DNA from: Candidatus Bathyarchaeota archaeon
GTDB lineage: Archaea; Thermoproteota; Bathyarchaeia; Bathyarchaeales; Bathycorpusculaceae
Assembly: GCA_018396875.1 (NCBI GenBank)
Contig: JAGTQG010000004.1
Location: 1-62,309 of the forward strand
Length of the DNA: 62,309 nucleotides
Direction: 5' to 3'
Position numbers and translations under genes: made by a program. Under the pieces are notes generated by a model. The model worked only from the letters and a program-made list of their open reading frames with translations, was not told the origin of the DNA and ran no database searches. Shown here piece by piece: positions 54,637 through 60,272 of the stretch; within the stretch, counting starts at the first letter, position 1, and every line of letters starts with the position of its first letter.

Positions 54637-55147
54637 AATTGTTGTTTACCATGCTGGGCAGTGCGACCCCAAAAAGTGCACAGCCCTAAAACTTAAACGT
54701 CACGGTCTTGTCCGCCTGGTGCGGCAAATCAAGCTTTTGCCAAAAGGCGCAGTAATTCTAAACCCCTATTCAAAAATCGCCTTTTCACCCGCCGACAGAG
54801 AACGCATAGAAAAGCATGGGTTAGCAGCCCTGGACTTCAGCTGGGAACACGCCGAAAAACCACTAATGAAAAACGTTAGAGGCGCGTCAAGGTGTCTACC
54901 CTATTTAGTGGCAGGAAACCCCGTTAACTTCGCATGTCCAACAAAACTAAGCACCGCTGAGGCTTTAGCTGCAGCCCTTTACATTGCCGGATTCAAAGAA
55001 GAGGCGTTAAAACTGCTGTCCATATTTAAATGGGGACACACGTTTATAGAACTAAATAAGGAAAGGCTTGAAGAATACGCAAAAGCTAGGAATAGCAGTG
55101 AAGTTATAGAATTACAAAGACAATTTCTGAAAAACGTTCAAGGTTAG
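54614..55147 (+). CDS. tsr3: Tsr3 (DUF367) rRNA aminocarboxypropyltransferase
   Basis: About 177 residues. Tsr3 transfers the aminocarboxypropyl group from SAM to pseudouridine derivatives in small-subunit rRNA. IVVYHAGQCDPKKCTALKL is the family N-terminus and GASRCLPYLVAGNPVNFACP the SAM region. That N-terminus lies before the first ATG, GTG or TTG of the frame that keeps it whole; the frame opens at 54602, and a CTG at 54614 has AAGGTG seven bases upstream, so I start there. It overlaps nnr by 23 bases. Confidence 0.85.
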   Translation: MAEQKPLKIVVYHAGQCDPKKCTALKLKRHGLVRLVRQIKLLPKGAVILNPYSKIAFSPADRERIEKHGLAALDFSWEHAEKPLMKNVRGASRCLPYLVAGNPVNFACPTKLSTAEALAAALYIAGFKEEALKLLSIFKWGHTFIELNKERLEEYAKARNSSEVIELQRQFLKNVQG

Positions 55148-55803
55148 GCTTGAATTTTTCCACACAGTTCCCCGCAATACATGAAAACGTCTATAAGAGA
55201 ACGTACAGATGAAGCCTCTTTCAAATCGCCTATCAAGTAAAGCCTTGAATCCTTTTCGCTCAAGGATAAACGCTTGATGAACGCCTTCATTTCTAAAATG
55301 CGCTTCTGTAAGCGACGATCTGACAAAAACTTGTCTGCAAGCTCATGGTTTGAAGCTAAAACCGCAAAGGATTCGTAAAACTCGCCGTTGGAAATCACGC
55401 GGGTAAGCCCTCTTTCGTGTGCCACCTTTGAGCACAATTTTTCATCCTTTATTGGAAGAATCTCCATGCTAAACGGAATTGGGTTCTTAAAGAAGCCCCA
55501 ACATGCAAGGCGATCCTTATCTTTCGTAAGTATAGATAGCGGATAGTGCATAAGGTTTTCACGGTCTACCAGGCTTACAGCCATTTCAACTTCAGTGAAA
55601 GGCTCCTTCTCTTTAAGCTTGCAAAGGACTCTGAAGCCGCCGCGGCTATAGGGGCGGAAACCAACAAAGGTGCTTCGTTTGGACATATGCTCTTTAACTG
55701 TTCTTGCATAGTTAACAGCGATTTTTCGGTTACGGTACATCCCAACAAAATAGACAATTAAAAATAGGAAGGCTAAAGCAAAGATTATGGTTATCTCGTA
55801 CAT
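55144..55803 (-). CDS. Membrane-anchored protein of unknown function
   Basis: 219 residues: one N-terminal membrane helix (IIFALAFLFLIVYFVGM), basic stop, then a soluble domain (YSRGGFRVLCKLKEKEPFTE ... LLIGDLKEASSVRSLID). I recognise no family. It probably faces the cytoplasm by the positive-inside rule. It converges with tsr3 and diverges from cstA. The ATG has GGAAGGAG seven to ten bases upstream. Confidence 0.7.
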   Translation of the reverse strand: MYEITIIFALAFLFLIVYFVGMYRNRKIAVNYARTVKEHMSKRSTFVGFRPYSRGGFRVLCKLKEKEPFTEVEMAVSLVDRENLMHYPLSILTKDKDRLACWGFFKNPIPFSMEILPIKDEKLCSKVAHERGLTRVISNGEFYESFAVLASNHELADKFLSDRRLQKRILEMKAFIKRLSLSEKDSRLYLIGDLKEASSVRSLIDVFMYCGELCGKIQA

Positions 55804-55885: not shown

Positions 55886-57595
55886 TTGCTCTCAATAATA
55901 GTGATTCTGACAGGGATAATTCTCTATGCCATTGCCTACTGGGGCTATGTCAAATGGTTTGACAAAAACGTTATAATGTCAGATCCAAAACGCGAAACAC
56001 CAGCCCACACATACATGGACGGAGTAGAATTTTTCCCAACAAACAAATACATCCTCTTCGGATTCCAATGGAAAAGCATAGCAGCCCTAGGCCCAGTGCT
56101 AGGCCCAATAATTGCCCTTCAATGGGGATGGCTTCCCGCCTTTCTATGGATAGTATTTGGAACCATATTTATTGGATGGATACACGACTACGGAAGCCTT
56201 ATGGTTTCCGTCAGATCCGAGGGAGCATCATTCGGACCAATAACATATGAGTTAATTTCTCCAAGGGCAAGAACAATACTGCTTTGGTACATTCTTTGGT
56301 ATATCATCCTAATTCTATCCAGTTTTACAAATCAGGTTGCAAGGTTATTCCAAAGGTTTCCAGTGAGCCCTATACCCGTACTTATCGTGGCTATAATTGG
56401 AGTGATAGTAGGATTCCTGACATACAGGTTTAAGGTTAACATAGTGTACACAACAGTAATCGCGGTGATTATAATATTCCTCGGTATATGGGCAGGCATC
56501 GCCATGCCTTACACTGCCCCACTGGAGCCCGTGCCCGCCACAGGCCCAGTCCCACCGTTTCCAAACGCTTTAGACTTTTGGATGTTCATAACCTTGCTAT
56601 TCTGCTTTTTAGGTGCAGTGTTGCCCATATGGGTCTTCATACAACCAATCAACTACCTCTCATTCTACTTAGTTTATGCGGGCGTTATAGGTGTAATTAT
56701 CGGAGCTTTAATTGGAGCCCCCAACTATCAATACTCGATGACTACAACATTCTTTGACTCAGCGCTAAAAGTAACACCATCTGGTCCTCTATGGCCTATG
56801 ATGTTCGTAACAGTTGCTTGCGGTGCAATATCCGGATGGCACAGCTTAATAGGCTCATCAGTTTCCTCAAAACAGTTGGACACAGAACCAGACGCCCACT
56901 TTGTAGGCGGCGGGGCAATGCTCGCAGAAGGGATAATGGCCCTCGTAGCTCTAACATCCGTTGCGATTTTGAATCCGGCTACAACCAAAAACGTAAGCGA
57001 CCCTGCAGGATCGTTCGTAACGGGGGCACGAACTTTATTTGAGAATCTAGGGATACCAAGCAATGTAGGAGAAGGCCTAGCATCAGTCATGCTAATCATA
57101 CTTGCAATAACAATAATGCATATAGGGTTAAGAATTACCCGTTTAGTTCTAGCAGACTTAGCTGGCCCCAAAGCAGGTGGAATCTTCAAAAACAAGTACT
57201 TCAGTGCTATCGTAGTGTGCATAATAGTCTACATAGTAACAAGTCCACACATAGGGGCTGCGTTCCAGTATATTTGGGGCACTTTTGGTGGTGCTAACCA
57301 ACTCATGGCCGGACTAGCACTAATGATTGTCTCGCTGTGGCTGACAAAAGAGAAGCGTCCTAGGGTTTATACAATGATCCCGATGCTGTTCATGTTGGTG
57401 ACAACATTATCAGCATTAACATACCTAATTTATATTGGAATCTTTGGACCAACTGGTTACTTGGCGGACCCCACAAGATGGGGCGCGCTTGTAGCTGTAG
57501 GTGTTAACATCTTCTTACTAATTCTTGGACTTTTCATGTGCTATGAGGGGGCCAAAGCCTTTAAACGGTTAAGGGCTGCAGCAAAGACTGCCTAA
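55886..57595 (+). CDS. cstA: Carbon starvation protein CstA family transporter
   Basis: 569 residues with about 14-16 membrane segments. The characteristic HDYGSLMVSVRSEG, GPIIALQWGWLPAFLWI and GWHSLIGSSVSSKQLD motifs identify CstA, which carries peptides or pyruvate in bacteria; its archaeal substrate is unknown to me. TTG start with GAGGGA five bases upstream. It lies alone, between a divergent gene and the convergent ArsA pair. Confidence 0.93.
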   Translation: MLSIIVILTGIILYAIAYWGYVKWFDKNVIMSDPKRETPAHTYMDGVEFFPTNKYILFGFQWKSIAALGPVLGPIIALQWGWLPAFLWIVFGTIFIGWIHDYGSLMVSVRSEGASFGPITYELISPRARTILLWYILWYIILILSSFTNQVARLFQRFPVSPIPVLIVAIIGVIVGFLTYRFKVNIVYTTVIAVIIIFLGIWAGIAMPYTAPLEPVPATGPVPPFPNALDFWMFITLLFCFLGAVLPIWVFIQPINYLSFYLVYAGVIGVIIGALIGAPNYQYSMTTTFFDSALKVTPSGPLWPMMFVTVACGAISGWHSLIGSSVSSKQLDTEPDAHFVGGGAMLAEGIMALVALTSVAILNPATTKNVSDPAGSFVTGARTLFENLGIPSNVGEGLASVMLIILAITIMHIGLRITRLVLADLAGPKAGGIFKNKYFSAIVVCIIVYIVTSPHIGAAFQYIWGTFGGANQLMAGLALMIVSLWLTKEKRPRVYTMIPMLFMLVTTLSALTYLIYIGIFGPTGYLADPTRWGALVAVGVNIFLLILGLFMCYEGAKAFKRLRAAAKTA

Positions 57596-57608: not shown

Positions 57609-58613
57609 TTATTTTTTGGCTAAGGCTTCTGCGACCCGTGCGATCATTTCTAGGCCCGTTACTTCTGTCTCGAACAGTGGCACGTATGCGCGGACCATTC
57701 CTGGAAACTTTTCATGTATAATTTTTAAGTATCCTTCCTGTTCTTTAATTTTGTTGACTATGTAGGATGAAGCGTTTTTTAGGTCGAATTCCTCTTTCGG
57801 CAAAACTTCATTCACTATTACTCCGCCTGTGGGGATATCGAATGCTTGAACCCAGCCGATGAAGCGTTCGATGACGGCTATTGGAAGCGAAAGGGGCAAA
57901 GTTACAAAGAAGAAGGCTGTTTTGTCTTTATCTGTTAAAAGCATGCGGCCTCTCTCAGTTTTCTCCCTCGTGGCTAATAGACTCGCAAGAAGTGGGTCCT
58001 TCTTGATTTCTTCCAATATCTTGTCCTTGCGGAAAGAAAGTTTAACACGTAGTGATAAGGCCTCTTCTCTGCTTTTAATCATTTTGTGCAGCCAAAGATC
58101 GTAAACTTTCGACATGCCCAAAAGACGGTAAGTGTGGGCTACAGGGGCTGTGTCAAACACATAAGCGTCAAACTCGCCCTTCAATATTAGGCTGATCATG
58201 TCGTCAAACATGGCTGACTCTTCAAAGGCGGGATTAGTTGTGGCAATGTCCACGAAAGGTTCAGGGTCTAATGGTATGTCAGCATACTTTAGGAAAGTGT
58301 AAATTTTCTCTCTAATCTCATCCTTGTATCGTTCAATAGTTTTTGATATGTCAATTTCAATAGCATAAAGGTTCTTTGTACCCTCAACCTTTTGGATCCC
58401 CTTACCCCAGAGGTCTTGACCGAAAGCGCTTGAGAGGCTGTGGACAGGGTTTGTAGACGAGATTAATGTTTTCTTGCCAAGTTTTTCAGCCAGATAGTAG
58501 GCTGTTCCAGCGGCTACTACAGTTTTGCCGACTCCGCCTTTTCCTCCAAAAAACAGATATTTCAGACTCGGTTTGGATGCAATGTAGTCGCTGAAACTTA
58601 GATCAGCACTCAT
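57609..58613 (-). CDS. ArsA/GET3-family ATPase (first of pair)
   Basis: 334 residues. FFGGKGGVGKTVVAAGTAYY is the deviant Walker A of the ArsA/MinD group, and DTAPVAHTYRLLGM the switch motif. No zinc-binding CxxC of eukaryotic Get3 and no arsenite-binding cysteine trio is evident. Two bases downstream of the second ArsA-like gene, so both are translated together. A membrane-protein targeting ATPase is more likely than arsenic resistance, since no ArsB is near. Confidence 0.88.
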   Translation of the reverse strand: MSADLSFSDYIASKPSLKYLFFGGKGGVGKTVVAAGTAYYLAEKLGKKTLISSTNPVHSLSSAFGQDLWGKGIQKVEGTKNLYAIEIDISKTIERYKDEIREKIYTFLKYADIPLDPEPFVDIATTNPAFEESAMFDDMISLILKGEFDAYVFDTAPVAHTYRLLGMSKVYDLWLHKMIKSREEALSLRVKLSFRKDKILEEIKKDPLLASLLATREKTERGRMLLTDKDKTAFFFVTLPLSLPIAVIERFIGWVQAFDIPTGGVIVNEVLPKEEFDLKNASSYIVNKIKEQEGYLKIIHEKFPGMVRAYVPLFETEVTGLEMIARVAEALAKK

Positions 58614-58615
58614 GT

Positions 58616-59605
58616 TTATTCCTCTCCAAACAAGGCTTTAGCCACTTCCGGAATCATTTTAAGCCCTTTAGGTTCACGGTCAAACATTGGAACAATCCCG
58701 CGGATAAGCGGGCCAAACTCTTGCTGGATAGTTTTCATATGTTTTTGCTGCATAAGTATCTTATTTTTCAAAAACTCTGGGACGTTTTTCTGCTTTAAAA
58801 GTTCAACTGGGTAGACTTGGTTCACTATGACCCCGCTTAAGGGAATGTTAAACTGCCTAAACATTTCCAAGGCCTTTTTTGTGTCCAGTATTGGCATAAG
58901 CTCTGGGATGAGAACATAAAAGAAGGCTGTGTGCTCCTCATCCCGCATCATGTTGCTCACGAAGCTCAGCCTTGAACGGATAAAGTCTAACTCTTCGAGG
59001 ATTTTATCCTCTTGAGCTAGACTGCCTTTACCACTCAGTACAGCGGCTACGTCGCCGTATTCGGCGGCTTTCTTCCTCGTTTCAACTATTTTGTTCACCC
59101 ACGCGTCAAGGATTTCCGACATTCCGAGGAATCGAACGGCATGTCCATGGGGCATCATGTCAAAAATGTAATAGTCGTAGGCTCCGCTTGTCATAAGCTC
59201 AACCATAGCGTCAAAAGTGGCGGATTCAGCCATGGCGGGTTCAGCAGCAGAAGACTTGATGTAATCGTCCACTTCTTTAGGGACTTCGCCGTACATTTTG
59301 ATTATTTTCTGTCGAATTTCCTCTTGATAGTCGGCTATGCGCTTGTCTGCGTCTATTTCCAGAGCGAAAAGATTGGGGGCTATTTCGACTTCTCCTTTGC
59401 CGAAAATGTTTCTTTCAAAAATGTCTGTAAGGCTTGCCTGTGGATCTGTAGAGAAAACCACAACTTTCTTGCCTCTTTTGGAAAGCCAATAAGCAGTGGC
59501 GGCGGAAAGGGTTGTTTTGCCTAAGCCTCCTTTACCACCAAAAAGAATGTACTTTATGTTGGGATGACTTGCAAAATACTCTTTAACCGAAAGGGCTTTT
59601 GACAA
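58616..59605 (-). CDS. ArsA/GET3-family ATPase (second of pair)
   Basis: 329 residues. Walker A FGGKGGLGKTTLSAATAYW, FSTDPQASL (switch), and DMMPHGHAVRFLGM, which replaces the usual DTAPTGHT by MMPHGHA. It is a clear paralogue of its downstream neighbour. TTG start with GGAGG seven bases upstream, 14 bases after the small protein gene. ArsA proteins need two nucleotide-binding halves; these two could form a heterodimer. Confidence 0.88.
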   Translation of the reverse strand: MSKALSVKEYFASHPNIKYILFGGKGGLGKTTLSAATAYWLSKRGKKVVVFSTDPQASLTDIFERNIFGKGEVEIAPNLFALEIDADKRIADYQEEIRQKIIKMYGEVPKEVDDYIKSSAAEPAMAESATFDAMVELMTSGAYDYYIFDMMPHGHAVRFLGMSEILDAWVNKIVETRKKAAEYGDVAAVLSGKGSLAQEDKILEELDFIRSRLSFVSNMMRDEEHTAFFYVLIPELMPILDTKKALEMFRQFNIPLSGVIVNQVYPVELLKQKNVPEFLKNKILMQQKHMKTIQQEFGPLIRGIVPMFDREPKGLKMIPEVAKALFGEE

Positions 59606-59619
59606 ACTTTATCCTCCTT

Positions 59620-59907
59620 TTAGGCGAAAACAGAATCCGTAACATCTCGTTCTCTAAGCAGAGTGCGTTTCCAAGTTTTTATGTGTGGAACACAGTAGGG
59701 CAAAAGTCTAAGACAATAGTACGGTGGCAGAACCGGAACACCCAACATATCACCCATCGTGATCAACATGAAAAGATTTTCTAGGTACATTCTTGTTTTT
59801 AGGGCATAACTAACCATGCCATGCATAGCCATACCGTAAACTAAGCCTTTGATGGCTTTTTTCACTTCACTTTCCTTTTTCTCTTCGCCAGCTTCATTCT
59901 TAGTCAC
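59620..59907 (-). CDS. Small ArsA-linked protein (copy A)
   Basis: 95 residues, no recognised family. A charged N-terminus, a moderately hydrophobic helix (AIKGLVYGMAMHGMVSYAL) and a second (NLFMLITMGDMLGVPVL), then the block YYCLRLLPYCVP...WKRTLLRERDVT. By eye, 27 of about 43 aligned positions are identical to the next gene. GTG start with GGTG eight bases upstream. It precedes the ArsA pair and likely belongs to the same transcript. Confidence 0.7.
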   Translation of the reverse strand: MTKNEAGEEKKESEVKKAIKGLVYGMAMHGMVSYALKTRMYLENLFMLITMGDMLGVPVLPPYYCLRLLPYCVPHIKTWKRTLLRERDVTDSVFA

Positions 59908-59975
59908 AGCTTTTTCACCACAAGGAATATAGAAAGACTATTGGGATAAAAAGATTGTTATACCATTTGTTTCTC

Positions 59976-60272
59976 TCATAGTTTCTCCGTTACGTCCCTC
60001 TCTCTAAGTAGGAAAGTTTTCCATTCGTTAAATCTGGGAAGCCAGTATGGAAGAAGCCTCAAACGATAATAGTTGGGAAGCGGGAAACCAAGCATGTCGC
60101 CGAGCACAACGAGCATCAACCCGTACTCAACCAATAACCGCCTCTCCTCAAGGTCTCTTACAACACTATAAACGGTTGCGCCAATTAGGAAATCTTTAAG
60201 CTTCCGCAGAAACCCAAACTTGGCTCCAATTTTATTCGACAAATCTAGTCTTCCAATTAAACTTAAATCCAA
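59976..60272 (-). CDS. Small ArsA-linked protein (copy B)
   Basis: 98 residues, paralogue of the 59.6 kb gene, sharing GDMLGFPLP, YYRLRLLPYWLP and LLRERDVT. The N-terminal part (LIGATVYSVVRDLEERRLLV) differs. The TTG start has no clear ribosome binding site, so the start is uncertain and may be leaderless or further in. It is the first gene of the ArsA-linked unit. Not recognised. Confidence 0.65.
   Translation of the reverse strand: MDLSLIGRLDLSNKIGAKFGFLRKLKDFLIGATVYSVVRDLEERRLLVEYGLMLVVLGDMLGFPLPNYYRLRLLPYWLPRFNEWKTFLLRERDVTEKL

Follow-up and report, generated by a model that had tools for sequence, protein, structure and literature searches.

A conserved CstA gene cluster of a Bathyarchaeota archaeon encodes an asymmetric ArsA/GET3-type ATPase pair and a CstY protein with a predicted CCDC47 fold

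In a stretch of 62,309 nucleotides of Candidatus Bathyarchaeota archaeon (contig JAGTQG010000004.1; hereafter the window, meaning the whole stretch), two ArsA/GET3-type ATPases, a and b, are encoded together with two CstX-like small proteins, alpha and beta, the transporter CstA and a CstY-like protein, these six genes forming the full unit (Table 1). Judging from sequence comparison, the gene set is conserved, the two ATPases derive from a single ancient duplication and are set apart by an Asp/Asn split in switch I, and CstY is predicted to have the CCDC47 fold. Operons of CstA, CstX, CstY and ArsA, with 26 instances of association, were already described by Castillo and Saier (2010; PMC2963123, cited from excerpts, as are the other papers given by PMC number), and the window cluster is thus of a known kind. 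We propose that the ATPase duo, docked via CstX and CstY, may drive, gate or lock CstA, a reading whose chances we judge to be evenly balanced. An earlier note, made from the sequence alone, had recognized the ATPases and the small proteins as a unit of four genes; these four are present, but the unit is larger, the genes of CstA and CstY having been missed.

Both ATPases matched PF02374 (E = 7e-63 and 5e-70) and exceeded the cut-off of 135 bits for TIGR00345, the model of the GET3/TRC40 subfamily. They are single-domain proteins of 334 and 329 amino acids (aa) with one PF02374 domain each, share 39% identity and are encoded 2 bases apart; they lie on the minus strand, and their coordinates and family agree with the earlier note, which had called them adjacent ArsA/GET3-like genes. 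ATPase a has the P-loop GGKGGLGKTT, the switch I STDPQASL, in which the Asp is kept, and the switch II DMMPHGH as against DTAPTGH, and ATPase b has the P-loop GGKGGVGKTV, the switch I STNPVHSL, in which Asn replaces the catalytic Asp, and the switch II DTAPVAH. The Asn of b aligns opposite the Asp of 3ug6 (ArsA/Get3), which we take to be a Methanocaldococcus jannaschii protein.

This asymmetry recurred in all 38 loci with paired ATPases, 36 of them distinct (L014 equals L163, and L016 equals L206): the first ATPase had the switch-I Asp and the second the Asn, the gene order small gene–a–b was kept, and a and b lay on the same strand, with gaps of -44 to +40 bases in 35 loci. The ATPase tree comprised 94 rows, namely 36 a, 35 b, 20 single ATPases of CstA loci and three outgroup sequences. 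All 36 a rows, each with Asp (S[TV]DPQASL), formed one clade with support of 100/100, as did all 35 b rows, each with Asn (S[TLF]NPVHS[LI]; 100/100), and the 71 rows of both types formed a joint clade (100/92). On this tree, the ATPases duplicated once, early, and, as each type is one clade, the pair appears to be an ancient asymmetric duo. The single ATPases kept the switch-I Asp in 20 of 20 cases. No locus contained b without a, and a was found without b in L184 alone, where the contig ends. The switch II of the a type deviated from DTAP (DMMPHGH, DMPPFGH and DLVPLGH), and that of the b type was DTAP in the rows matched by the pattern search, 14 b rows giving no match; with Asp kept and DTAP altered in a, and Asn and DTAP in b, the two genes seem to have specialized in opposite directions. 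The Asp of this switch-I motif presumably corresponds to D57 of Get3. Hydrolysis by yeast Get3 requires D57, and the D57N variant binds and traps ATP without hydrolysing it (PMC12506534). ATPase b may likewise be unable to burn ATP, and the invariant split predicts that the natural ArsA/GET3 unit in these loci is heterodimeric, with a single hydrolysing site.

Profile A1 detected relatives of the small proteins in 38 of 300 Thermoproteota. With profile A3, they were detected in 37 of 301 genomes from the phylum to which the Anaerolineales locus belongs (Chloroflexota) and in 47 of 294 from that of the Methanoperedens locus. From such matches, 60 regions, 20 each from Thermoproteota, Chloroflexota and Halobacteriota, were picked and annotated with profiles; the phylum names of genomes with our G numbers follow the named loci L014–L021 and a kinship assignment. 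ArsA was present in 55 of the 60 loci, the others being four that end at a contig edge (L149, L167, L171 and L186) and an extra small gene (L158) of genome G208, whose main unit is complete. CstA was also present in 55 loci. Among the remainder, CstA sits elsewhere in the genome for L151 and L180 (G295 and G576), L158 (G208) and L171 (G504) hold extra small genes of genomes whose main unit has CstA, L171 being a contig end as well, and L203 ends at a contig edge. CstY was present in 36 loci (15 of 20 in Thermoproteota, 13 of 20 in Chloroflexota and 8 of 20 in Halobacteriota). In 70 of 70 cases, a small gene lay directly upstream of an a-type or single ATPase. Given this placement and the recurrence across three phyla, the association of the genes exceeds chance. 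The survey thus bears out the earlier note in treating ATPases and small proteins as one conserved functional unit, and the profile search that it had suggested found small proteins accompanied by ArsA apart from the contig ends and the extra copy. Pairwise distances, taken without control for species history, correlated between a and b (r = 0.96), a and alpha (0.91), a and CstA (0.87), and a and CstY (0.76).

Table 1. Genes of the CstA cluster in the window
Gene product	Position	Strand	Basis and remarks
ATPase b, ArsA/GET3 family, 334 aa	57609..58613	(-)	TIGR00345 219.1 bits; b clade
ATPase a, ArsA/GET3 family, 329 aa	58616..59605	(-)	TTG start as called; TIGR00345 228.0 bits; a clade
Small protein alpha, CstX-like, 95 aa	59620..59907	(-)	Size and place; constant copy, directly upstream of ATPase a
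Small protein beta, CstX-like extra copy, 98 aa, faster-evolving	59976..60272	(-)	Paralogy to alpha; extra-copy clades of the tree
CstA, carbon-starvation protein family (pyruvate/peptide transporter)	55886..57595	(+), convergent with the ATPases	PF02554 E = 4.9e-120
CstY-like, 219 aa, with a single N-terminal span followed by a predicted CCDC47-fold domain	55144..55803	(-)	PF07946; AF2 model; Foldseek/VIA-align

In the window, 13 bases separate CstA from ATPase b, and CstA is 28% identical to that of Escherichia coli K-12. None of five neighbouring proteins scanned was an arsenic gene product, as the earlier note had held, and with CstA as the partner, a function in arsenic resistance was rejected. 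A search of the host order with a single small-protein sequence gave matches in 6 of 121 genomes at E = 0.01, those in G034, G042 and G065 (E = 8e-4 to 6e-3) looking like chance. Genomes G095, G099 and G110, which belong to the genus of the window, had neither the small protein nor CstA, indicating that the whole module is patchy within one genus. The cassettes of the Chloroflexota genomes G534 and G587 (L172 and L183) nested among Thermoproteota in both ATPase clades; this suggests that the cassette probably moved whole, and a transfer between domains is probable.

The small proteins alpha and beta were identical at 34 of 77 positions (44%; E = 4e-21), and the C-terminal block that they share has the 27 identities that the earlier note had counted by eye, which agrees with their description as paralogues preceding the ATPases. 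Their lengths and positions fit CstX (~90 residues), to which they were matched by size and place. In the small-protein tree, in which few columns were available and many forks were unresolved, alpha was the invariant copy directly upstream of ATPase a, and the extra copies were spread over several clades, the well-supported branches requiring a minimum of five label changes. Copy number also varied: among 31 pair loci of the 60, four had one small gene, 22 had two and five had three, and the Methanoperedens genome G380 has a single small gene genome-wide with two ATPases. A joint doubling of ATPases and small proteins thus does not hold, and the coevolved pairs suggested in the earlier note are not supported, one-to-one pairing being rejected on the tree and the copy numbers, a single early ATPase duplication standing against extra small proteins in several clades.

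A mean hydropathy of 1.6 or more over 19 residues was seen in 5 of the 36 alpha copies, in 18 of the 43 extra copies and in 3 of the 23 single-locus copies. PMC2963123 describes CstX as single-span; by hydropathy, there is no clear membrane span in the small proteins. The AF2 model, which shows two helices, was of low confidence (pLDDT 64.6, pTM 0.29), and a sequence search of PDB gave one chance-level match. NF041419 (cory-CC-star) was weakly matched with 31.6 and 25.8 bits against a cut-off of 80, and 19 of 20 relatives matched it at E = 0.01 (best 4.8e-10), suggesting that the small proteins are related to cory-CC-star without being members. No mention of cory-CC-star was found in the open-licence PMC literature.

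The window CstY matched PF07946 (CCDC47) with 30.0 bits against a gathering cut-off of 27.7, its residues 5–186 aligning with positions 6–206 of the 326 in the profile. PF07946 was matched at E = 0.1 or better by 8 of 12 near CstY relatives and 5 of 30 diverse ones; scanned singly, 3 of 10 relatives matched (L148, L150 and L234), all under the cut-off, and two Chloroflexota rows and one Halobacteriota row gave no match. A template-free AF2 model built from three sequences (pLDDT 82, pTM 0.79) was matched by Foldseek and VIA-align to 7tm3_4 (E = 1.2e-8; Z = 18.6, 210/219 aligned), 9i78_4 (E = 8.9e-8; Z = 15.6) and 6w6l_7 (E = 6.2e-6; Z = 13.1), which are chains of endoplasmic reticulum (ER) translocon structures, and to TtfA, 6t84 (E = 4.5e-4; Z = 14.3 over 155 residues); the best VIA-align row outside CCDC47 and TtfA had Z = 8.8. 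That the matched translocon chains are CCDC47 is indicated by the literature: the aligned range of 9i78_4, 76–368, equals the CCDC47 body, 76–370, of PMC12572126, and 6W6L includes CCDC47. Sequence searches of PDB with one sequence or three alignments listed no solved CCDC47 chain at E = 10 or better, and the link to CCDC47 thus rests on Pfam and the fold. Hydropathy indicated an N-terminal span in 53 of 55 CstY-like open reading frames, with more Lys/Arg behind it in 53 of 55, which probably places the domain of CstY in the cytosol, like that of CCDC47. CstY stops after the globular domain; profile positions past 206 are unmatched, and the latch helices and coiled-coil are not present. The profile match and the model point to a distant kinship of CstY with CCDC47, whose fold it is predicted to share. 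The comparison of the CstY model with 6t84 also suggests that CCDC47, CstY and mycobacterial TtfA share one fold; CCDC47 and TtfA were not found named together in the open-licence PMC literature. Prokaryotes lack PAT components according to a 2022 paper (PMC9630114), and the excerpts of PMC11186639, PMC7505659, PMC12572126, PMC13261788 and PMC9630114, within the same literature, contain no statement on an archaeal or bacterial CCDC47.

With 219 aa and one span, this protein fits the CstY of PMC2963123 (~210 residues), to which it was matched by size and place. An archaeal CstY profile built without Chloroflexota rows detected CstY in L020 and in 12 of the 20 loci from Chloroflexota (E = 1.8e-12 to 2.4e-7); the CstY E-values of the locus annotation are inflated, since many of those rows built the profile. 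CstY was found in 24 of 200 Thermoproteota and, among the loci examined, lay apart from CstA in L233, L234, L237, L240, L242 and L243. PF02554 found no CstA in the CstY-bearing genomes G007, G261, G121 and G138, and found it elsewhere in the genome in G187 and G220, suggesting that CstY may have a wider role. In L233 (G007:C66, 3524–6817), look-alikes of the window genes left of CstY adjoin a CstY-like gene, and G007 has neither CstA nor the small protein; in the window, these genes are one Ribo_biogen_C gene and one that we take to encode an NAD(P)HX-epimerase-like protein. CstY of G007 seems to have been left behind after loss of the rest, or to have been present before its arrival. In haloarchaeal loci, the CstY profile found no CstY, and a neighbour of ~220 residues was present in nine of nine haloarchaeal CstA loci compared (L191, L193, L194, L196–L198, L201, L202 and L204), with no Pfam match in the two scanned.

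We consider that the ATPases may serve CstA because CstA was present in 55 of 60 loci, the order small gene–a–b was kept in 38 of 38 and b never occurred without a, and because of the switch-I split, the Get3 D57N precedent, the correlated distances and the proposal of PMC2963123, drawn from operons and trees, that CstA is energized by ArsA homologues with CstX as a linker. In this scenario, CstA would be the membrane transporter and the two ATPases and two small proteins would provide the cytosolic part of its transport system. ATPases a and b would pair obligately as an asymmetric ArsA/GET3-type heterodimer, with hydrolysis taking place at the site of a and with b probably keeping its ATP bound and unhydrolysed. 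The CstX-like proteins would dock the ATPase onto CstA, CstY, anchored by its one span, may be the scaffold, and ATP binding and hydrolysis would drive, gate or lock CstA, by analogy with ArsA and ArsB. The adaptor role that the earlier note gave to the small proteins is plausible; the constant partner in the loci is CstA.

Several observations weigh against this scenario. Pyruvate uptake by CstA of E. coli requires the small protein YbdD, and the excerpts of PMC5847655 report no ATPase, suggesting that CstA might in principle work without one; CstX showed no detectable kinship to YbdD, the hhalign probability against E. coli YbdD being 0.4%. As the switch II of a departs from DTAP, a may be impaired too. 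Genome G138 (99% complete) has CstX-like, ArsA and CstY genes (L243, 6318–9495) and no PF02554 match, contrary to an earlier statement that CstX is never found without CstA. CstY, moreover, also fits a role in biogenesis. In L243, a hydrophobic protein of 84 residues is encoded upstream of the small gene.

A dedicated biogenesis module, in which the GET3-type duo, the CCDC47-like CstY and CstX would insert, fold or assemble the many-span CstA and not power its transport, is a close rival that we hold tentatively. It is favoured by the predicted fold of CstY, CCDC47 being a PAT-complex subunit of the ER multipass translocon (PMC7505659; PMC13261788), by the nature of GET3 as a membrane-targeting factor, by bacterial CstA functioning with YbdD, and by CstY in the four genomes without a PF02554 match, which is thus not tied to CstA transport. 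However, CstY is without the CCDC47 latch helices (residues 371–447 of the Chaetomium model, PMC12572126), no Asterix-like partner was found, and haloarchaeal and Methanoperedens loci have CstA, CstX and ArsA with no detectable CstY. ER CCDC47, furthermore, has many clients, whereas this gene set adjoins one. The CxxC metal motif is typical of Get3, and it was absent from all 94 ATPase rows, the three outgroup rows included. The membrane-protein targeting or assembly system of the earlier note is not supported as general targeting, given CstA as partner and the missing CxxC, while assembly of CstA itself gains weight from the CCDC47-like CstY.

If a CCDC47-fold protein is indeed encoded in archaeal and Chloroflexota CstA operons, a eukaryotic factor that aids the building of membrane proteins in human cells would have prokaryotic kin, and the CstA operon would be a simple system for learning the effect of the CCDC47 domain on one client. 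A further-reaching view, that this prokaryotic CCDC47 with GET3-type ATPases and a many-span transporter is a dedicated assembly module, that it or its kin are ancestral to PAT-complex parts, and that the duo is a natural hetero-pair of the D57N type with one hydrolysis per cycle, seems rather unlikely to us. A regulatory lock, in which the duo would sense the ATP or energy state, with b as the ATP sensor, and switch CstA on or off under starvation with little turnover, appears improbable: the invariant Asn of b and the altered switch II of a fit slow or no hydrolysis, and CstA, as its family name implies, is part of carbon-starvation physiology, but a keeps the switch-I Asp and the P-loop in all 36 rows, suggesting that hydrolysis is in use. 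A two-part system that targets membrane proteins in general, the small proteins serving as its receptors or adaptors, is very improbable, since, despite the TIGR00345 matches and a and b being the only full-length PF02374 members in the genome of the window (94% complete; two further matches were short, with 37 and 26 bits), CstA linkage is found nearly everywhere, the congeneric G095, G099 and G110 are without the module, the ATPases have no CxxC and the number of small proteins does not follow that of ATPases.

Among known systems, Get3/TRC40 shares with the ATPases described here the fold family, the P-loop GKGG(V/L)GK(T) and, by homology, the dimer type; here, however, two different genes always occur together, with Asn in b and an altered DTAP in a, and the proteins are without CxxC and linked to a transporter. 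The ArsA–ArsB arsenite pump likewise has an ATPase encoded with a transporter and two ATPase units, which are fused in ArsA and separate here; in the present case, the transporter is CstA, switch I is asymmetric and no arsenic genes were seen among the five scanned neighbours. Two different ArsA/GET3-like subunits are also combined in one structure entry for Rv3679–Rv3680, or BagA–BagB, of Mycobacterium (6bs3), but these are weakly similar to ATPase a (E = 6e-9 and 2e-5). E. coli resembles the window in having CstA with a small partner, but YbdD is no detectable relative of the window small proteins, which had no Pfam match to PF04328 (YbdD/YjiX) at E = 1, and in the E. coli K-12 stretch shown, cstA and ybdD had no ATPase gene between them or next to them.

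CCDC47 and CstY are alike in the N-terminal span, the globular cytosolic domain, PF07946 and the best PDB fold matches, whereas identity is 12–16% in the VIA-align alignments, and CstY has no luminal domain and is encoded with one transporter. TtfA, the mycobacterial trehalose monomycolate transport factor A, is a lipid transport factor by its PDB title and belongs to another transporter, MmpL3, and another organism; its likeness to CstY is known here from the fold. The closest counterparts are the operons of PMC2963123, the only source in the open-licence PMC literature found to treat CstX and CstA together, which agree in CstA, a one-span CstY of ~210 residues and a single-domain ArsA of ~330 residues and, by size and place, in a CstX of ~90 residues. 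PMC2963123 gave CstY from five archaea only, reported neighbouring ArsA genes in two organisms and CstX paralogues likewise in two, listed Thermococcus kodakarensis KOD1 with CstY and a pair of paralogous CstX, stated that the switch-I Asp of single-domain homologues is replaceable only by Asn, and suggested homodimers, whereas in the present loci the paired ATPases fall into one clade with Asp and one with Asn, and CstY occurs with CstA in Thermoproteota, Halobacteriota and Chloroflexota and is tied to CCDC47. The asymmetric ATPase pair, the separate doubling of the small proteins and the CCDC47-like CstY are new relative to what had been described.

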